Assembly: GCF_000802235.1 (NCBI RefSeq)
Contig: NZ_JTDL01000001.1
Location: 1 to 33,577 of the forward strand
Source of the DNA: Sinomonas humi
GTDB lineage: Bacteria > Actinomycetota > Actinomycetes > Actinomycetales > Micrococcaceae
DNA length: 33,577 nt
Reading direction: 5' to 3'
Every line of letters begins with the position of its first letter. Position 1 is the stretch's first letter. Of this stretch, positions 10,121 to 25,237 are shown piece after piece. A program made the translations under genes and the position numbers. The notes below the pieces were generated by a model. That model searched no databases and was not told where the DNA came from. It saw nothing but the letters and a program-made list of their open reading frames with translations.

Positions 10121-11110
10121 ATGAAAATCGTCGTCATCGGTGGCAGCGGCCATATCGGCTCTTTCCTCGTCCCCCGGCTGGTCCGTGCCGGCCACGAGGT
10201 GACCAACATCAGTCGCGGCAGGCACAAGACCTATGTCGATGCCCCCGAATGGCAGAACGTGCGCCAGATTGCCGCAGACCGCGAGCAAGAAGACCGTGAG
10301 GGCACTTTCGGCGACCGGGTCGCGGCGCTCGGGGCGGACGTCGTCGTCGACCTTGTCTGCTTCACCCTCGAATCGGCGACCTCGCTCGTCGAGCGGCTCC
10401 GGGGCCAGACAGGCCACCTCGTGCACTGCGGGTCCGTGTGGCGTTATGGCCCCAGCCGCAAGCTTCCTATCTCCGAGGGCAGCGACACGGCCGGTCCGAC
10501 CTTCGGCGACTACGGCATCCAGAAAGACCGGATCGCCCGGATGCTCAAGGACGAAACTGCCTCGGGCGGCCTCGTGACGACGTCCCTGCACCCTGGTCAC
10601 ATCGTCGGCCCGGGCTGGCACCCGATCGGCCCCCTCGGGAACCTCGACCCCGCCGTCTGGCACGCCCTCTCGGCAGGGGAGCCGCTGCAGGTCCCCGGAA
10701 GCGGCACCGAAATGATGCACCACGTCCACGCCGACGATCTCGCGCAGGCGTTCGAGATGGCCATCGAGCACCGCGAGGCCGCAGCCGGCGAGGACTTCAA
10801 CATCGTCGCACCGACGGCGCTCAGTGTTCGCGGCTACGCGGACATAGCCGCGGGGTGGTTCGGCCAGACCGCCAAGCTGGAGACGGTGAGTTGGGAGGAC
10901 TTCCGCCAATCGACGACGCCGGAATTCGGCGAATCGACGTGGGGTCACCTTTATCGGAGCCAGTGCTTCAGCATCGAAAAGGCCAAGTCCCTCCTGGGCT
11001 ACGCGCCTCGGTACGAGCCGGAAGAGGCCGTGCTCGAGTCCGTCCGTTGGCTCATCGACAACGACCAGCTCAGTGTGGCCGCTGCCCTGCAGGAACCAGC
11101 TGTCCGCTGA
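10121..11110 (+). CDS. NAD-dependent epimerase/dehydratase family protein (extended SDR)
   Basis: 329 residues. The N-terminal Rossmann motif G7-G-S-G-H-I-G13 binds the dinucleotide. The catalytic Y131-x3-K135 lies in DYGIQKDR, and S105 in HCGSVWRYG could be the third member. H-P-G-H-I-V-G-P-G-W and HHVHADDLAQAFEMA match the substrate-side part of extended short-chain dehydrogenases. The length is usual for the family. The substrate (a sugar nucleotide or another carbonyl) cannot be read. It is a single gene, divergent from the redox operon and followed by the inverted repeat array. It is likely translated from a leaderless or nearly leaderless mRNA. Confidence 0.88.
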   Translation: MKIVVIGGSGHIGSFLVPRLVRAGHEVTNISRGRHKTYVDAPEWQNVRQIAADREQEDREGTFGDRVAALGADVVVDLVCFTLESATSLVERLRGQTGHLVHCGSVWRYGPSRKLPISEGSDTAGPTFGDYGIQKDRIARMLKDETASGGLVTTSLHPGHIVGPGWHPIGPLGNLDPAVWHALSAGEPLQVPGSGTEMMHHVHADDLAQAFEMAIEHREAAAGEDFNIVAPTALSVRGYADIAAGWFGQTAKLETVSWEDFRQSTTPEFGESTWGHLYRSQCFSIEKAKSLLGYAPRYEPEEAVLESVRWLIDNDQLSVAAALQEPAVR

Positions 11111-11119
11111 CAGGCGCAG

Positions 11120-11384
11120 CCGTCCCTCCCTTCCCGTCCCCGGAGCAGCACAGCCGTCCCTGACCGGCACACCCGTCCCCGAGCAGCACAGCCGTCCCTG
11201 ACCGGCACACCCGTCCCCGAGCAGCACAGCCGTCCCTGACGGGCATAATCGGTGCACCTGCCGGACGGTTATGCCTCTGCCAGACGATCGTGCCGGCCAC
11301 GGACGGTCATGGAGGCGAGGGACGGTTATGCCGGCCACCTTAGGCCAGCCACGGACGGTTATGCCGGCCACGGAGGGGCATGCC
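11120..11384. repeat. Inverted array of 19-bp-period repeats
   Basis: The left half repeats CCGTCCC-x-GA-x-C-x-GCACA units with starts at 11120, 11134, 11154, 11173, 11192, 11211 and 11230. Two 38-bp double units, 11154-11191 and 11192-11229, are identical. The right half carries the reverse complement core GGACGGTTATGCC at 11263, 11282 (degenerate), 11301, 11320, 11353 and 11372, again mostly 19 bp apart. The halves turn around at about 11240-11262. The array fills the gap between two convergent genes and codes for no clear product. Confidence 0.9.
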
Positions 11385-12014: not shown

Positions 12015-14006
12015 ATGATGCGCCACTCTCCGCTCCCCACCCTCGGGTTCGCCGCCTTCGTCGCTCTCGCCAGCGTTGCCCCGGCCGCTCCCAGCGCGAC
12101 GTCGAGTCCGACGGCGGGTGGGCCGCCGCCGTCGTCCGCTCCCCCGGTCTTCAGCCTCGCGGCGAGCACAACGGATTGTGCCTCGACAGTCCTGTCCGGG
12201 ATGACCCTTGCCCAGCAGGTGGGGCAGCTGTTCATGATGGGCGTGACCAGCACGGGACCGACCAGCACTCAGCTCGGCGAGATCAGCTCGAACCATCTCG
12301 GCGGCGTCGTCCTCACGGGTGACAGCGCGGCCGGGGTAACCGGCACGCTCCAGATCACCAATCAACTGCAGGCGCAGGCAACGAGCACGGCGGGCGTAGC
12401 CCTGTCAGTGGCCGTCGATCAAGAAGGCGGCTACGTCCAGGTCCTCAGCGGCCCTGGCTTCTCCAGCATCCCGACGGCGCTCGCCCAAGGATCGATGGAC
12501 CCGACGGCCCTGCGACAGGCGGCGGCGCAGTGGGGGCGCGAGCTGCTCAATGCGGGAATCACCCTCAATCTGGCTCCCGTGCTGGACACCGTGCCCGCGA
12601 GCCTCGGCGGGGCCAACATTCCGATCGGCTACTACGAGCGCGAGTACGGATACACGCCGGACGTCGTCACCTCGCACGGCACGGCGTTTGCCAGCGGAAT
12701 GGCCGACGCCAAAGTGCAGGCTACCGGCAAGCACTTCCCCGGCCTCGGGCGGGTGACGGCCAACACGGACACGACGTTCGGCGTCACTGACACCGTCACC
12801 ACGAGGCATGACGCCTACCTGCAGCCGTTCGCGGCCGCGATCAGCCAGGGGATTCCGGCGATCATGGTTTCGCTCGCGCAGTACAACGCCATCGACGGCC
12901 TGCGCGCAGCCTTCTCCCCCACCGTGATGCAGGGAATGCTCCGGAGCGATCTGGGGTTCGGCGGCGAGATCATCTCGGACAGCATGGCCGCCGTCGCCGT
13001 ATCCGATCTCACCCCTGCCAACCGGGCGATGGACTTCCTCACAGCCGGCGGCACCGTGGTCCTCGACACCAATCCCGCGGACATCCCGCCCATGGTGAGC
13101 GCCGTCGTCGCGAGGGCCCAGCAGGACCCAAGCTTCTTGGCGCAGGTGCAGGCGGCGGCGGGGATCGTCCTCGAACAGAAGTACCGCGCCGGGCTCGTCT
13201 CCTGCCCGGCGGCTTACGATCCCATCGTCCAGCACTATCAGCAGCTCGGCGGCAGCGGCTCCTTCCTCGGCCAGCCCAGCGGCTCGGAGTACCGCATCGC
13301 TGGCGGCCGCGCCCAGGACTACGCGGGCGGCACGATCTACTGGTCGTACACGACTGGCGCCTTCGAGGTGAACGGCGGCATCCTCAGCCACTACCGCTCA
13401 CTTGGCGGGCCAGGGGGCTTCCTCGGATTCCCGCTGACTGACGAGAGCGGCGTGCCCGGCGGGCGCTACAACAACTTCACGGGCGGCTCGATCTACTGGA
13501 GCCCAGCGACCAACGCTCGGGAAGTCCACGGCGCGATCCTCGGGCATTATCGGGCCCTCGGCGGGCCGGGTGGCTTCCTCGGATTCCCGCTGACTGACGA
13601 GACGGGCACCCCGGGCGGCCGCTACAACGACTTCACGGGCGGCTCGATCTACTGGAGCCCAGCGAGCGGAGCCCATGAGGTGAACGGGGGGATCCTGGGC
13701 CACTACCGGGCCCTTGGCGGCCCGGTAGGCTTCCTCGGATTCCCCCTCACGGATGAGACCGGCACTCCCGATGGAATAGGCCGCTACAACAACTTCACCG
13801 GCGGATCGGTCTACTGGACAGCGGGCACCGGCGCCCGTGAGGTGCACGGTGCAATCAGGGCGAAATGGGGGTCCCTCGGGTACGAGCGAAGCCCGCTCGG
13901 ATACCCGGTGAGTGACGAATACGGCGTTCCCGGCGGCCGTCGCAATGACTTCCAGCACGGTTCGATCGTGTGGAATCAGGCGACGGGCACGACTCAGGTG
14001 ATCTGA
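12015..14006 (+). CDS. Secreted GH3 beta-N-acetylhexosaminidase with five LGFP repeats
   Basis: 663 residues from ATG 12015 (ATG 12018 is also possible). Residues 1-25 are a secretion signal. The GH3 (NagZ-type) domain covers about 55-400 with DQEGGYVQ, K239-H-F-P-G-L-G-R (the acid/base loop region) and the likely nucleophile D322 in IISDSM. A C-terminal set of five LGFP repeats (about 405-663) contains LGGPGGFLGFPLTDE and FTGGSIYWS units. LGFP modules bind the mycolate/arabinogalactan or peptidoglycan wall in related bacteria. It probably trims N-acetylglucosamine from wall fragments outside the cell. The repeats are also near-identical in DNA (see 13225-14003). Confidence 0.92.
   Translation: MMRHSPLPTLGFAAFVALASVAPAAPSATSSPTAGGPPPSSAPPVFSLAASTTDCASTVLSGMTLAQQVGQLFMMGVTSTGPTSTQLGEISSNHLGGVVLTGDSAAGVTGTLQITNQLQAQATSTAGVALSVAVDQEGGYVQVLSGPGFSSIPTALAQGSMDPTALRQAAAQWGRELLNAGITLNLAPVLDTVPASLGGANIPIGYYEREYGYTPDVVTSHGTAFASGMADAKVQATGKHFPGLGRVTANTDTTFGVTDTVTTRHDAYLQPFAAAISQGIPAIMVSLAQYNAIDGLRAAFSPTVMQGMLRSDLGFGGEIISDSMAAVAVSDLTPANRAMDFLTAGGTVVLDTNPADIPPMVSAVVARAQQDPSFLAQVQAAAGIVLEQKYRAGLVSCPAAYDPIVQHYQQLGGSGSFLGQPSGSEYRIAGGRAQDYAGGTIYWSYTTGAFEVNGGILSHYRSLGGPGGFLGFPLTDESGVPGGRYNNFTGGSIYWSPATNAREVHGAILGHYRALGGPGGFLGFPLTDETGTPGGRYNDFTGGSIYWSPASGAHEVNGGILGHYRALGGPVGFLGFPLTDETGTPDGIGRYNNFTGGSVYWTAGTGAREVHGAIRAKWGSLGYERSPLGYPVSDEYGVPGGRRNDFQHGSIVWNQATGTTQVI
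13225..14003 (+). repeat. DNA tandem repeats encoding LGFP modules
   Basis: Five units of about 53 codons. The middle ones share long near-identical stretches, such as GGCTTCCTCGGATTCCC at about 13419, 13571 and 13729. Recombination could change the number of units. Confidence 0.8.
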
Positions 14007-19419: not shown

Positions 19420-22400
19420 ATGATGGCTCGGAGCGCGACCCCCGCACCTGCGGCGGGCCGCGCCGTCCTCGAGCGGTTCGGCGGCGCGACTCGGGAGTGG
19501 TTCCTCGGCGCCTTCCGTGAGCCAACCCCCGCACAGGCCGGCGCCTGGGAGGCGATCTCCTCGGGGCGGCACGCGCTCGTCGTCGCCCCGACCGGCTCGG
19601 GTAAGACCTTGGCCGCCTTCCTCTGGTCGCTCGATCGGCTCATGCGGAGTGACGTCAGCTCGCAGAACCCTCCTTCCGCCGGGCTCGCCTCGGACCAGGC
19701 GGACGACGACGGCGCGCTCCCGGGCATGCCCCGTCCCCGCCGCCGGGGCAAGAGTGGGGGCCCCAAGAACCTCACGAAGGTGCTGTACATATCGCCGCTC
19801 AAGGCGCTCGGCGTCGACGTCGAACGCAATCTGCGAGCGCCGCTGATCGGCATCTCCCAGACCGCCCGGCGTCTAGGCTTCCCTGTGCCCGAGGTGAGCG
19901 TCGGTGTCCGCTCGGGGGACACCACGGCCTCGGACCGGCGTGCTCTCCTGAGCAACCCGCCGGACATCCTGATCACCACCCCGGAGTCCCTCTATCTCAT
20001 GCTCACTTCCCAGGCACGGGAGACGCTGAGCGAGGTCCAGACGGTGATCGTGGACGAGGTGCACGCGGTGGCCGGCACCAAGCGGGGCGCTCATCTCGCG
20101 GTCTCGCTCGAACGCCTCGACGCCCTGCTGCCCAAGCCCGCGCAGCGGATTGGGCTCTCGGCAACGGTCGAGCCGCGCGAACTGGTCGCGCAGTTCCTCG
20201 CGGGGCAGGCACCGTGCGAGGTTGTCGCGCCGCCTGCTGCGAAGACGTGGGAGCTCACCGTCACGGTGCCCGTTGAGGACATGAGCGACCTGCAAGGTGC
20301 GGCCGCTGCCAACGACATGGGCCCTGCGAGCGGGCTCCAGCCTCAGGCCTCGATCTGGCCCCACGTCGAAGAGAAGATCGTGGATCTGGTCCTCGCGAAC
20401 CGCTCGACGATCGTCTTCTCGAATTCGCGGCGCCTAGCGGAACGGCTCACGGGCCGACTCAACGAGATCTACGCCGAGCGCCTGCAGCCGAGCGTGTGGG
20501 ACGAACCGATCCAGCAGCCGGACGGGCCCACTGCGGCGACCTCCCGCACCCCTGCCGAGATGATGGCGCAGGCCGGCCAGACGGCGGGCGCGGACCCGGT
20601 CTTGGCCCGTGCCCACCACGGTTCTGTGTCCAAGGAGCAGCGCGCACAGATCGAGGACGACCTCAAGTCCGGGCGGCTGCGGTGCGTGGTCGCGACGAGC
20701 AGCCTCGAGCTCGGCATCGACATGGGTCTCGTGGACCTCGTGATCCAGGTCGAATCGCCGCCGTCGGTCGCGTCCGGCCTCCAGCGCGTGGGGCGCGCGG
20801 GGCATCAGGTGGGTGAGGTGAGCCAAGGAGTGCTCTTCCCCAAGCACCGCGCCGACCTCGTTCACACCGCGATCACGGTCGAACGCATGCTCGCGGGGCA
20901 GATCGAGGCCCTGCGCATCCCCGCGAATCCGCTCGACATCCTCGCTCAGCAGACCGTCGCCGCCACCGCCTTGGGTCCGGTCGACGTCGAGGAGTGGTTC
21001 GACGTCGTGCGGCGTTCCGCGCCGTTCGCGACCCTGCCGCGCTCGGCGTTCGACGCAACCCTCGACCTCCTCTCCGGGAAGTACCCGAGCGACGAGTTCG
21101 CCGAGCTCCGACCACGCATCGTGTGGGACCGGGACGAAGGGACCATCGAGGGGCGCCCCGGCGCGCAGCGACTCGCCGTGACCTCGGGCGGGACCATCCC
21201 CGACCGCGGCCTGTTCGGCGTCTACATCGTGGGTTCGGAGGTCGAGGGGTCTGCTCGAGAGGCGGCGCGGGGCGGCCGCCGCGTGGGCGAGCTCGACGAG
21301 GAGATGGTGTACGAATCGCGCGTCGGCGACGTGTTCGCGCTCGGGGCCACGAGCTGGAAGATCGAGGACATCACCCATGACCGCGTCCTCGTCTCCCCCG
21401 CCTTCGGCCAACCGGGCAAGCTCCCCTTCTGGAAGGGCGACGGCGTGGGGCGGCCGGTTGAGCTTGGCCGCGCCCTCGGCGCGTTCCAGCGCGAGGTCTC
21501 CGGCGCGGACCGCGAACGCGCGCTCGAGCGCATCGAGGCCGCCGGGCTCGACGCTTTCGCGGCGGGGAACCTCGTTCAGTACCTCGACGAGCAGAAGCAG
21601 GCGACGTCGATCGTGCCGAGCGATCGGACGCTCGTCGTCGAGCGGTTCCAAGACGAGCTGGGCGACTGGCGGGTCGTCCTGCACTCGCCTTTCGGCATGC
21701 CCGTGCACGCGCCTTGGGCGCTCGCCGTGGGCCAGCGCCTGAGCCAGCGGTACGGAATCGACGGATCCGCAATGGCGGCCGACGACGGGATCGTCCTGCG
21801 TGTGCCCATGATGGAGGACGAGCCCCCCGGAGCAGAGCTGTTCGTCTTCGAGCCCGACGAGATCGAGGGGATCGTGACGGACGAGGTCGGCGGATCTGCA
21901 CTGTTCGCGGCCCGGTTCCGCGAGTGCGCGGCCCGCGCGCTGCTGCTCCCCCGGCAGAATCCCGCCAAGCGGCAGCCGCTGTGGCAGCAGCGCCAGCGCG
22001 CGTCCCAGCTGCTCGACGTCGCCAAGAAGTTCCCCCAGTTCCCCATCATCCTCGAGGCCGTCCGCGAATGCCTCCAGGATGTGTACGACCTGCCCGCGCT
22101 CAAGGACGTTGCGGCCTCGATGCAGCGGCGCGAGCTGCGGCTTGTCGAGACCACGACGCAGCAGCCCTCGCCGTTCGCCCGCTCCCTGCTCTTCGGCTAT
22201 GTTGCCCAGTTCCTCTACGAAGGCGATTCGCCGCTGGCCGAACGGCGGGCCGCCGCGCTCTCCCTCGACTCAACCCTGCTCAACGAGCTCCTCGGCCGCG
22301 CCGAACTCAGCGAACTCCTCGACGCGCGCATCATCGAGCAGACCGAGCGGGAGCTGCAGCGGGTTGCTGAGGATCGGAAGTTGACCGGGCTCGAGGGCGC

Positions 22401-24330
22401 GGCGGACCTGTTGCGCCTGCTGGGGCCGCTCTCGACGGAGGAAGTCGCCGAGCGGCTTCGCGTCACAGAGGGCGAAGCCGCCCAGCATCTCGCTGATAGC
22501 GCCCGGCACCTCGAGGAGCTGATAGCCAGCAAGCGGGCCCTTCTGGTCTCGATTGCGGGAGTCGAGCGCTATGCCGCCATTGAGGACGCCGCCCGGTTGC
22601 GGGATGCCTTGGGCGTTCCCCTGCCCATCGGGGTTCCGCTCGCGTTCATTGAGCCGGTCGCAGATCCTCTCGGGGACCTCGTGGGGCGGTATGCGAGGAC
22701 GCACGGGCCGTTCACTGCCGGGGAGGCGGCCGCGCGGCTCGGGCTCGGGGTCGCCGTCGTCCATGGGACGCTCAAGCGCCTCGCCGCGGACGGTCGTGTC
22801 ATCGAGGGGACGTTCCGCCCCACGACCGGCGACGCACCCGTCACCGGAGGCCCAGGCGAATGGTGCGACGCCGAGGTGCTGCGCAGGATCCGGCGCCGTT
22901 CCCTCGCGGCGCTGCGCGCCGACGTCGAACCCGTCGACCAGCCCGCCTTCGCGCGCTTCCTTGCCGCGTGGCAGCACGTCGGGGAGAACTCTGGGACTCG
23001 TGGCGCACCCCGGGGGTCGCTGCGCGGGCACGACGGCGTCCTCACCGTCGTCGACCAGCTCGCCGGTGTTCCGGTCCCGGCGAGCGCATGGGAATCGCTC
23101 GTGCTGCGGAGCCGAGTCTCGGACTACTCGCCCGCCCTGCTCGACGAACTCATGGCGAGTGGCGAGATCCTCTGGACCGGTGCCGGAGCCCTGCCGGGCA
23201 ATGACGGCTGGGTGAGTCTGCATGTCGCCGAGTCCGCGCCCTTGACGCTCGCCCCGGACCCCGACTTCACGCCCGACGACGTCCAACAGCGCATCCTCGA
23301 CTTCCTCGCGGGCGGGGGCGGCTACTTCTTCCGCCAGATCGCCGAGGCGGGCGGAGGCATGGACTCCGTTCTCACAGACGAGGCGGCAGTCCACGCGCTG
23401 TGGGATCTGGCTTGGGCTGGCAGGGTCACGGGAGATACCTTCGCGCCCGTCCGAGCGATGCTCGACGCCGGTCACACCGCCCACCGGCAGCCCTCCCGAA
23501 CACCGCGGGCCCGCACCTACGGTGGCGGGCGCGGATCCATCGGAAGTTCAGCCCTGCGCGGCGGGCGCCTCCCCCGGGTCGGCCGGCTGGGCGCGGTGAC
23601 GGGCTTGGGCTTCGACGCGCCGTCGTCCGCCGCGCCCCCCATGGCGGCGGGCCGCTGGGCCGCAGTCCGCCAGGTCGAGCTCGACCCGACCGTCAAGGCC
23701 CACGCCCTCGCCGAACTGCTCATGGACCGCTATGGGGTCCTCACCCGCGGATCCGTCATGTCCGAAGAAGTCCCGGGCGGATTCGGCCTCCTGTACAAGG
23801 TGCTCTCGAGGCTCGAGGAGGCCGGCAAGTGCCGGCGGGGCTATTTCGTGGACCGGCTTGGAGCCGCGCAATTCGCGGTGCCCGCCACAGTTGACCGCTT
23901 GCGCTCCTACGCGCGGGATGAGACCACGGCAGTTACCGGCCTCGATTCAGACGCGCCGCGCGCGGCCCTCGCCCTCGCCGCCACAGACCCCGCAAATCCC
24001 TACGGGGCGGCGCTCGCCTGGCCCGAGGTACCCGACGCCGCGACCGGCCACCGCCCCGGGCGCAAGGCGGGCGCTTTGGTCGTGACGGTCGACGGCGCGC
24101 TGGCCCTCTACGTCGAACGCGGCGGCAAGACGCTGCTCGCCTTCACCGACGACGACGAAGTGCTGGCTCCCGCTGCTACGGCGCTTGTCGGCGTCGTCCG
24201 CTCAGGCGCGGTGGACAAGCTCGTCATGGAGAAAGTCAACGGTCGGGACCTCCTCGACACGCCTCTCTCCCGGGCGCTCACCGCCGCGGGAGCCTACTCG
24301 ACGCCGCGAGGGGTGCGGATCCGTGCCTGA
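19420..24330 (+). CDS. lhr: Lhr-type ATP-dependent DNA helicase
   Basis: 1,636 residues, the full length for actinobacterial Lhr. The N-terminal superfamily 2 core has A56-P-T-G-S-G-K62-T (Walker A), TPESLYLML, D212-E-V-H (motif II), S-A-T (motif III) and SSLELGIDMGLVDLVIQVESP with RVGRAGH (motif VI). A long Lhr C-terminal region with winged-helix and homing-type domains follows. An Arg- and Asp-rich insert (about 75-115) after motif I is common in this group. It is a 3'-5' DNA translocase and RNA:DNA unwinding enzyme linked to repair of crosslinks and mitomycin damage. The stop overlaps the first of the 28-bp repeats that lead to the nei2 start, so the two are one operon. Confidence 0.95.
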   Translation: MMARSATPAPAAGRAVLERFGGATREWFLGAFREPTPAQAGAWEAISSGRHALVVAPTGSGKTLAAFLWSLDRLMRSDVSSQNPPSAGLASDQADDDGALPGMPRPRRRGKSGGPKNLTKVLYISPLKALGVDVERNLRAPLIGISQTARRLGFPVPEVSVGVRSGDTTASDRRALLSNPPDILITTPESLYLMLTSQARETLSEVQTVIVDEVHAVAGTKRGAHLAVSLERLDALLPKPAQRIGLSATVEPRELVAQFLAGQAPCEVVAPPAAKTWELTVTVPVEDMSDLQGAAAANDMGPASGLQPQASIWPHVEEKIVDLVLANRSTIVFSNSRRLAERLTGRLNEIYAERLQPSVWDEPIQQPDGPTAATSRTPAEMMAQAGQTAGADPVLARAHHGSVSKEQRAQIEDDLKSGRLRCVVATSSLELGIDMGLVDLVIQVESPPSVASGLQRVGRAGHQVGEVSQGVLFPKHRADLVHTAITVERMLAGQIEALRIPANPLDILAQQTVAATALGPVDVEEWFDVVRRSAPFATLPRSAFDATLDLLSGKYPSDEFAELRPRIVWDRDEGTIEGRPGAQRLAVTSGGTIPDRGLFGVYIVGSEVEGSAREAARGGRRVGELDEEMVYESRVGDVFALGATSWKIEDITHDRVLVSPAFGQPGKLPFWKGDGVGRPVELGRALGAFQREVSGADRERALERIEAAGLDAFAAGNLVQYLDEQKQATSIVPSDRTLVVERFQDELGDWRVVLHSPFGMPVHAPWALAVGQRLSQRYGIDGSAMAADDGIVLRVPMMEDEPPGAELFVFEPDEIEGIVTDEVGGSALFAARFRECAARALLLPRQNPAKRQPLWQQRQRASQLLDVAKKFPQFPIILEAVRECLQDVYDLPALKDVAASMQRRELRLVETTTQQPSPFARSLLFGYVAQFLYEGDSPLAERRAAALSLDSTLLNELLGRAELSELLDARIIEQTERELQRVAEDRKLTGLEGAADLLRLLGPLSTEEVAERLRVTEGEAAQHLADSARHLEELIASKRALLVSIAGVERYAAIEDAARLRDALGVPLPIGVPLAFIEPVADPLGDLVGRYARTHGPFTAGEAAARLGLGVAVVHGTLKRLAADGRVIEGTFRPTTGDAPVTGGPGEWCDAEVLRRIRRRSLAALRADVEPVDQPAFARFLAAWQHVGENSGTRGAPRGSLRGHDGVLTVVDQLAGVPVPASAWESLVLRSRVSDYSPALLDELMASGEILWTGAGALPGNDGWVSLHVAESAPLTLAPDPDFTPDDVQQRILDFLAGGGGYFFRQIAEAGGGMDSVLTDEAAVHALWDLAWAGRVTGDTFAPVRAMLDAGHTAHRQPSRTPRARTYGGGRGSIGSSALRGGRLPRVGRLGAVTGLGFDAPSSAAPPMAAGRWAAVRQVELDPTVKAHALAELLMDRYGVLTRGSVMSEEVPGGFGLLYKVLSRLEEAGKCRRGYFVDRLGAAQFAVPATVDRLRSYARDETTAVTGLDSDAPRAALALAATDPANPYGAALAWPEVPDAATGHRPGRKAGALVVTVDGALALYVERGGKTLLAFTDDDEVLAPAATALVGVVRSGAVDKLVMEKVNGRDLLDTPLSRALTAAGAYSTPRGVRIRA

Positions 24331-24414
24331 TAAGACCAGCGGAGCTGGCTGTGCCTGATAAGACCAGCGGAGCTGGCTGTGCCTGATAAGACCAGCGGAG
24401 CTGGCTGTGCCTGA
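24323..24414 (+). repeat. Three exact 28-bp repeats forming overlapping mini-ORFs
   Basis: Units 24323-24350, 24351-24378 and 24379-24406 are identical, and the first 8 bases (GTGCCTGA) occur a fourth time at 24407. Each unit holds GGAG, 6 bp and GTG. Each GTG opens an 11-residue frame (MPDKTSGAGCA) whose TGA lies inside the next GTGCCTGA. The first TGA is the lhr stop; the last GTG is the nei2 start. Confidence 0.95.
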
Positions 24415-25237
24415 AGGCGACAACGTATGGCAGGCGGCAACCCGCATGCATGCAGCCCTCGCGGGGAAGCGCCTCGCCCAGACTGACTTCCGCGTGCCCT
24501 CGTTTGCGACCCTCGACCTCGCGGGGTGGACCATCCTCGACGTCGTCTCGCGGGGAAAGCATCTGCTCCACCGACTCTCCCCTCCCGAAGACGCCGATCC
24601 GAGCGCAGGCTCGGCACCGCTCAGCATCCATTCGCATCTGAAGATGGAGGGAAGCTGGCAGGTCTACGGCGCCGGCGAACGTTGGCGGAAGCCAGCGCAC
24701 ACCGCCCGCGTCGTGCTCCGCACCGAGGACGGTACGAGCGCCGTCGGCTTCTCTCTCGGCGTGCTTGAGGTGATCCCGACCGCGGAGGAGCAGACCGTCG
24801 TCGGCCATCTCGGCCCCGACCTCCTCGGCGCAGACTGGAACCCGGCCCTTGCCGAAGCGAACCTTCGTGCCCAGCCCGACCGGCCGATCGGCCTGGCGCT
24901 CCTCGACCAGCGCAACCTCGCCGGCATCGGCAACATCTACCGGAACGAGGTGTGCTTCCTCGCGCGTGTCCATCCGGCGACTCCCGTCTCGGAAGTCCGT
25001 GACCTCACAGGCCTCGTGGCGATGGCCCAGCGACTGCTGGAGGTCAACCGCAATCGAGGGTCCCGGAATACAACCGGCGGATTCGGCCCGCGGGGCAACT
25101 CGTGGGTCTATGGGCGCGCGGGGCAGCCCTGCCGACGCTGCCACACGAGAATCCAGCACGGCGTGCTCGGCGAGGGCGGCGTCTCAGAGCGGGACATCTA
25201 CTTCTGCCCGCGCTGCCAGCCGCCGCCCCAGCACTGA
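24407..25237 (+). CDS. nei2: Nei2-type endonuclease VIII / Fpg-family DNA glycosylase
   Basis: 276 residues. After Met removal the catalytic P-E-G-D start is exposed (P2, E3). VVSRGKHLL has the conserved Lys of the beta-turn, and NLAGIGNIYRNEVCFLARVHP is the helix-two-turn-helix DNA-binding part. The C-terminal zinc finger is C-R-R-C...C-P-R-C (CRRCHTRI, YFCPRCQ). The order lhr then nei2 is common in actinobacteria, which supports a joint role in repair of oxidised bases. GTG 24407 is the only start that gives the N-terminal Pro. It is probably translated by re-initiation after lhr. Confidence 0.95.
   Translation: MPEGDNVWQAATRMHAALAGKRLAQTDFRVPSFATLDLAGWTILDVVSRGKHLLHRLSPPEDADPSAGSAPLSIHSHLKMEGSWQVYGAGERWRKPAHTARVVLRTEDGTSAVGFSLGVLEVIPTAEEQTVVGHLGPDLLGADWNPALAEANLRAQPDRPIGLALLDQRNLAGIGNIYRNEVCFLARVHPATPVSEVRDLTGLVAMAQRLLEVNRNRGSRNTTGGFGPRGNSWVYGRAGQPCRRCHTRIQHGVLGEGGVSERDIYFCPRCQPPPQH

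Follow-up and report, generated by a model that had tools for sequence, protein, structure and literature searches.

The question raised by this locus is why three copies of a minute open reading frame (ORF) should stand, each hooked into the next, between a pair of DNA-repair genes which in most related bacteria simply overlap. The locus lies in a 33,577-nucleotide (nt) stretch of the genome of the soil bacterium Sinomonas humi (contig NZ_JTDL01000001.1, positions 1 to 33,577 of the forward strand), referred to below as the window. A tandem array of 28-bp units (24323..24414, + strand; period 28, 3.3 copies and 100% matches in Tandem Repeats Finder, TRF) joins lhr, encoding a large ATP-dependent helicase, to nei2, encoding a Nei2-like endonuclease VIII. 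Comparison of this junction with its counterparts in other genomes leads us to consider it likely that the three mini-ORFs are relay cistrons, born by junction duplication, which keep the two genes coupled by termination-reinitiation (TeRe).

The lhr gene (19420..24330, +; 1636 aa, C-terminus RIRA followed by the stop; NCBIfam NF007284, 1796 bits against a cut-off of 1496) is followed on the same strand by nei2 (24407..25237, +; 276 aa, N-terminus MPEGDN), which is the gene order of an Lhr-Nei2 operon. The best NCBIfam match of the nei2 product is NF040775 (Nei2; E 1.7e-90, 302.9 bits, below the 400-bit cut-off). The octamer GTGCCTGA starts at 24323, 24351, 24379 and 24407. Every copy can be read in two frames: as GCC TGA it closes one ORF, and as GTG CCT GA it opens its successor. 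At octamer 1 (24323..24330, +) the end of lhr (CGT GCC TGA, with the TGA at 24328-24330) overlaps by 8 nt with the GTG start of mini-ORF 1 (24323..24358, +). Octamer 2 (24351-24358) opens mini-ORF 2 (24351..24386, +), octamer 3 (24379-24386) opens mini-ORF 3 (24379..24414, +), and in octamer 4 (24407..24414, +) the mini-ORF 3 stop, formed by the CCT codon for Pro2 of Nei2, meets the nei2 start. Each mini-ORF consists of 11 codons plus a stop and encodes MPDKTSGAGCA, so that the order is lhr, three times MPDKTSGAGCA, nei2, with neighbours joined by 8-nt overlaps throughout. As 28 equals 1 mod 3, the chain remains intact at any number of units. A perfect 28-bp array is, as a repeat, far beyond what chance could plausibly yield; its copy number is given here as assembled in a draft genome of 156 contigs.

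This chain of octamers had been described in the initial annotation, and TRF, the sequence and the ORFs (chain detection) all bear it out. The same annotation assigned to each mini-ORF a GGAG site of its own. A GGAG is indeed present in each of them, but it sits 6 nt ahead of the next GTG and serves that start instead: the copies at 24341..24344, 24369..24372 and 24397..24400 (all +) are Shine-Dalgarno (SD)-like sites for mini-ORF 2, mini-ORF 3 and nei2, respectively, while the first start is preceded, at a spacing of 9 nt, by GAGGGG in the lhr tail (24308..24313, +). The predicted energy of pairing to the 16S rRNA tail, calculated with an assumed anti-SD sequence, is -10.2 kcal/mol for the stretch upstream of the first start and -6.0 kcal/mol for each of the next three. 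A hairpin with the SD in its loop (CCAGC-GGA-GCTGG) is possible in each unit; its fold is no better than that of shuffled sequences (z 0.26 for one unit and -0.90 for the array), and we claim no structural element.

Does the arrangement follow a rule that extends beyond this genome? Within the family, 395 genomes were searched and 336 yielded a nei2 match; junctions were taken from 218 of these, picked mainly by listing order and genus. The resulting set of 249 distinct parsed junctions, in which identical letters were counted once, comprises family members and named relatives only: 208 rows from the family genomes and 41 from 80 named loci (two of these were unparsed and the remaining ones duplicated other rows). 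A chain was scored only if each joint overlapped by -1, -4, -8, -11 or -14 (overlaps are given as negative distances). Direct overlap of lhr and nei2 is the most common state (174/249; 173 at -8 and one at -1). In a further 52 junctions the genes are separated by a spacer, and the lhr stop is overlapped by a start codon, at -8 in 41 cases and at -4 in 11. All 52 are bridged to nei2 by mini-ORFs: every joint is an overlap, and the stop of the last mini-ORF overlaps the nei2 start. In the remaining 23 junctions the spacer lacks a start on the lhr stop, and none of them is bridged (two are bridged only under a looser rule). The relays usually contain one mini-ORF (46/52), less often two (5/52), and three in S. 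humi only.

Relay spacers range from 6 to 473 nt, and their mini-ORFs, of 5 to 162 aa, vary in sequence. The extremes were found in genus g32. The 473-nt spacer of L333 (genome G045) is a single relay ORF of 162 aa carrying a 51-bp tandem repeat in 6.6 copies, and the 407-nt spacer of L334 (G198) is a single relay ORF of 140 aa with tandem repeats of 75 bp and of 18/36/54 bp; the frame is kept in both. This diversity bears on the idea that the mini-ORFs encode functional small peptides. Some g32 peptides are alike, ending in PGRNRA, but the octamer dictates the shared C-terminal residues (RA, HA), PGRN is encoded by an SD-like stretch, and between genera the peptides appear wholly different by eye over a range of 5 to 162 aa, which makes a peptide function highly improbable.

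A further 22 loci, including all 13 of the wider order, were not parsed by the script and were read by hand. They comprise six plain -8 overlaps, three at -14, four at -1, three relays, one bridged junction and five unbridged ones (L277, L327, L330, L262 and L264). One of the relays belongs to the same family (L309), and two to other families of the order: L355 contains two mini-ORFs linked by short stop/start overlaps (its lhr is the second-longest upstream ORF, chosen by its C-terminus), and L357 a single 25-aa mini-ORF with -14 overlaps. At the bridged locus (L356) the upstream gene was not recognised as lhr. An explanation by genus alone was dropped, since other genera follow the frame rule. 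Genera g22 and g23 (e.g. L087, L098 and L167) illustrate the uncoupled state: no start lies on the lhr stop in their 21 parsed rows, nei2 mostly starts with ATG, and its Pro2 codon is mostly CCC. Modulo 3, the g23 spacer lengths occupy every class, and in 10 of 16 cases nei2 follows an SD of the AGGAG or AAGGA type.

How much of this agreement might be owed to chance or kinship? When spacers were replaced by Markov sequence of the same length, plus or minus one base, chains formed with a mean frequency of 0.344 (range 0.02-0.66 by row). Because related genomes are not independent, the junctions were placed on a tree built from the lhr 3' end and the nei2 head. The 23 uncoupled tips were pruned, none of them spaced with a start on the lhr stop, so that each of the 226 tips left is either an overlap or a chain. 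On this pruned tree the junction distance changed at least 40 times, and relays were gained independently an estimated 18 times. If the gains are treated alike, 18 of them correspond to a probability of about 5e-9 at 0.344 each, or about 4e-6 at 0.5 each, values which are descriptive only, because the frame rule had been seen before it was tested.

The codons at the two ends of the relays provide a second line of evidence. Where lhr already ends upstream of the spacer, nothing should constrain the Pro2 codon of nei2 other than the mini-ORF stop placed on it, if that stop matters. Of the 52 relay genomes, 42 use CCT for Pro2; CCT accounts for 34 of 531 Pro codons in the 3' part of lhr in the same genomes, and Pro2 is CCT in 3 of the 23 uncoupled genomes. 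The 10 relays with CCC at Pro2 all possess a substitute exit stop, either at -14 via the GGT codon of Gly4 (8) or at -1 (2). At the entry side, the Arg codon of g32 is CGT, which makes the GTG, in 27 of 27 cases; among the remaining Arg codons of the lhr 3' part, CGT accounts for 34 of 249. The codon counts, which are not independent and concern an exit stop that is itself part of the chain scoring, suggest that selection acts at the entry as well as the exit of the relay, with the peptide between them apparently free. Hand-over of ribosomes by re-initiation, as proposed in the initial annotation, thus receives strong comparative support from the frame rule (52/52 versus 0/23) and from the retention of entry and exit codons.

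The same data weaken the view that the mini-ORFs are translated to no purpose, as chance by-products of repeats in GC-rich DNA, while nei2 relies on an SD of its own. In its favour, nei2 does without coupling in genera g22 and g23, and the predicted SD before nei2 is stronger in relays (median -9.5 kcal/mol, n=52) than in plain overlaps outside Sinomonas (-5.7 kcal/mol, n=169). This view leaves unexplained the frame agreement in 52 of 52 junctions, the kept CCT and CGT codons, and the maintenance of frame across spacers of 407-473 nt, and we regard it as improbable. Outside Sinomonas, as a side idea, relays may also ease the clash between coding for lhr and supplying an SD.

The mechanism that we propose would operate as follows. 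A ribosome terminating lhr translation at the TGA (24328-24330) would re-initiate on the overlapping GTG, read 11 codons, stop at the next octamer and re-initiate there, beginning nei2 after the third mini-ORF. The peptide would be disposable, the selected trait being that the frame opened at the lhr stop closes exactly on the nei2 start. Relays would originate when sequence is duplicated in tandem, or inserted, at the 8-base overlap of lhr and nei2 that is the ancestral state, and would persist only if the unit length equals 1 mod 3 or if another stop/start overlap mends the link, because other lengths would break the coupling or fuse the unit to the Nei2 N-terminus. Pro2 of Nei2 is needed for apurinic/apyrimidinic lyase activity, as reported for the Mycobacterium smegmatis mutants P2A and P2C (PMC11323726). 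Re-initiation at overlapping stops and starts has been documented (PMC6728339), as have short ORFs that deliver ribosomes, a role which has also been proposed for mycobacterial interspersed repetitive units, MIRUs (PMC12548453). In M. smegmatis, lhr and nei2 form a DNA-damage-induced operon (PMC11323726); by analogy, this could be a plausible reason to keep the two genes coupled. Observed directly are the anatomy of the locus, the frame rule, the kept codons and the multiple independent origins of relays; we infer that ribosomes do re-initiate along the chain and that nei2 expression depends on it.

An open frame across the spacer might have other causes: the spacer could be kept translated against Rho-dependent polarity, or it could be a frameshifted extension of Lhr. 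Both require an open frame, and uninterrupted translation would serve to avoid polarity. However, spacers of 6-40 nt should be too short to need protection from Rho, and neither explanation demands an exit stop on the nei2 start or an entry frame opening with a start codon; we consider both very unlikely.

Several observations weigh against the relay interpretation. The frame rule was first noticed in the same data that were used to test it; moreover, relatedness among the rows means that counting them exaggerates their independence, and gains and changes were counted after the 23 uncoupled tips had been pruned. At two Prescottella equi loci (L262 and L264) an overlapping GTG and a 4-nt gap occur with no relay, and L277 and L083 (g23; L083, which belongs to neither the 249 rows nor the 22 loci read by hand, was checked separately) have an overlapping start (-1 GTG and -4 TTG, respectively) and no bridge. 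Gaps of up to 6 nt seem to be tolerated without a relay. The pair pyrR-pyrB, joined by a 4-base overlap, is also telling, for relays have nearly never arisen there (1/30, then 0/70 in further genomes). Among the first 30 junctions, 29 are plain overlaps and in the only spaced one (L364, genome G010) a mini-ORF of 4 aa, entered at -8 and left at -4, bridges the 3 nt between the genes. The 70 further genomes comprise 53 overlaps at -4, six at -1, two at -23/-26, four junctions without a recognisable start and five gaps of 2-6 nt, all unbridged, two of them (L432 and L451) despite an overlapping start. Since pyrR-pyrB is almost devoid of relays, these are peculiar to lhr-nei2 and unexplained by coupling alone. 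We had considered extending the rule to any overlapping gene pair, which is unsupported beyond the single 4-aa case.

An uncoupled pair, ruvC-ruvA, has spacers of 49-259 nt in 30 of 30 genomes (under a longest-ORF rule, by which the true ruvC stop may have been missed in some). A start lies on the upstream stop in four of them and none of the four is bridged, which indicates that such a start alone gives no bridge; two of the 30 are bridged by accident via a -14 entry. The 259-nt spacer of one of these genomes (L418, G012) apparently contains a tandem duplication of the 3' end of the upstream ORF together with the bases that follow it. A rough look by eye at pyrB-pyrC and ruvA-ruvB revealed mostly plain overlaps or +1 starts.

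Where did the array come from? The lhr-nei2 locus is present in 15 of 15 Sinomonas genomes, S. humi included. In the closest relative by nei2 (G014, 93% identity) and in three others, the two genes are joined by one octamer and there is no array; for this reason the array was most likely gained, judging by these sequences, after the split of S. humi from G014. The initial annotation suggested that the repeat probably arose by duplication of the lhr-nei2 junction. As a class such events do occur: the spacer of G110 repeats 22 bp of lhr tail plus nei2 head, that of G068 repeats 16 bp of the nei2 head, and that of L226 repeats 19 bp comprising the octamer and the bases upstream of it. For the array itself the claim holds in part, since only the octamer is ancestral and the 20-nt filler, TAAGACCAGCGGAGCTGGCT, is no local copy. 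At up to 3 mismatches this filler has no match in its own genome outside the array, where it occurs three times; its best other match within the window has 5 mismatches. Similar events have happened elsewhere: Arthrobacter rhizosphaerae (L263) carries an independent series of octamer-like units of 18/19/19 bp, and in the Sinomonas genomes G002, G003 and G004 the end of lhr is copied over 14 bp, with GTGA forming the joint.

Another explanation would be that a mobile repeat of the MIRU type inserted itself where nei2 begins. The plan is shared, with mini-ORFs that overlap both neighbours between adjacent genes, and the 20-nt filler lies between 8-bp direct repeats. The filler is, however, confined to the array in its own genome, the species collection genome_contigs (from which records very near the window may have been excluded) gave no exact match to a 25-base piece of the unit, and the relatives display local duplication instead. 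A dispersed element was rejected on the first two of these grounds, and we hold insertion of a MIRU-like repeat to be quite improbable.

The number of units remains to be considered. If the array expanded and contracted, the number of relays might set the dose of Nei2, and the chain would survive each added unit; a variable repeat between rnc and fpg1 of Mycobacterium tuberculosis is reported to accompany the fpg1 transcript level (PMC2734929). On the other hand, repetition is not the conserved feature, given the single mini-ORF in 46 of 52 relay rows, and the instability of the repeat is an assumption, the comparison having covered one genome per species. We therefore regard such a rheostat as rather unlikely. 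Extra copies could equally lower Nei2 or have no effect, because the SD sites of the units are predicted to be weaker than that of the first start (-6.0 versus -10.2 kcal/mol). Within Sinomonas generally, the predicted SD at nei2 is weaker in relays (-5.6 to -7.6 kcal/mol) than in plain relatives (-8.4 to -10.2 kcal/mol). As a tentative extension of the relay interpretation, which we think possible although the odds are somewhat against it, the lhr-nei2 junction of the Micrococcaceae may be an evolutionary record of ribosome hand-over, in which arbitrary cistrons are repeatedly born and kept if their frame relays, and their number (0 to 3) sets the Nei2:Lhr ratio, some ribosomes being lost whenever re-initiation takes place.

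These observations touch on two open questions, namely whether true re-initiation occurs at overlapping actinobacterial genes, and whether intergenic short ORFs are functional or noise. The comparative data offer a clean test, with many independently born spacers which are frame-locked and sequence-free, and with rare codons kept that preserve a stop on the nei2 start. The naturally occurring relays, of 5 to 162 aa and standing singly or up to three in sequence, form a series that could serve to measure the efficiency with which ribosomes are handed on, and frame together with codon retention provides a simple criterion for finding other relays.

The window contains other repeats outside the lhr-nei2 locus. 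A 38-bp tandem repeat (11133-11245; 2.9 copies, 97%) lies just 3' of an ORF ending at 11110 (+), and a hexanucleotide array, CACGAC, occupies 2351-2397 (7.8 copies, 97%; TRF). A 156-bp repeat (13371-13818; 2.8 copies) lies inside the ORF 12015-14006 and encodes LGGPGGFLGFPLTDE-type repeats, which we take to be LGFP-like; the preceding part of this ORF presumably resembles a secreted glycoside hydrolase domain.

In the open-access literature we noticed no earlier description of such natural relays beyond MIRUs and engineered cassettes. The latter, known as bicistronic designs, have an internal SD and an overlapping stop/start; they are engineered, placed first in the mRNA, and single. The relays of lhr-nei2 differ in being natural, internal and serial. 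Leader-peptide attenuators and regulatory upstream ORFs need a conserved peptide, whereas relay peptides are, by eye, unrelated between genera. The likeness to bicistronic designs and mini-cistron cassettes is that a short leader cistron brings ribosomes to the next start (such cassettes are named in PMC12548453). TeRe-coupled gene pairs likewise hand ribosomes over at overlapping stop and start codons (Huber 2019, PMC6728339), but as described there they do so directly from gene to gene, while lhr-nei2 has up to three intermediate cistrons. The locus VNTR3239, also called ETR-F (rnc-fpg1, M. tuberculosis complex), resembles the present one in having a variable tandem repeat directly before an Fpg/Nei glycosylase gene; it involves another gene pair, and its array begins 40 bp past the rnc stop (PMC2734929).

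The closest parallel is provided by MIRUs, which are repeats inside operons, in tandem in senX3-regX3 (PMC12548453, PMC4213456, PMC2734929). Their small ORF overlaps the neighbouring stop and start, as the mini-ORFs do here: the overlap is -8 at all four joints of the array, compared with -4 in MIRUs (PMC12548453). The MIRU unit measures 40-100 bp (PMC2734929), against 28 bp in S. humi. MIRUs are dispersed, whereas the array is a single locus (the filler occurs three times, always within it, at up to 3 mismatches), and in relatives the same junction has repeatedly acquired relays of unrelated sequence. The array is thus a single-locus relative of MIRUs in plan, with -8 joints, and not a member of their family.

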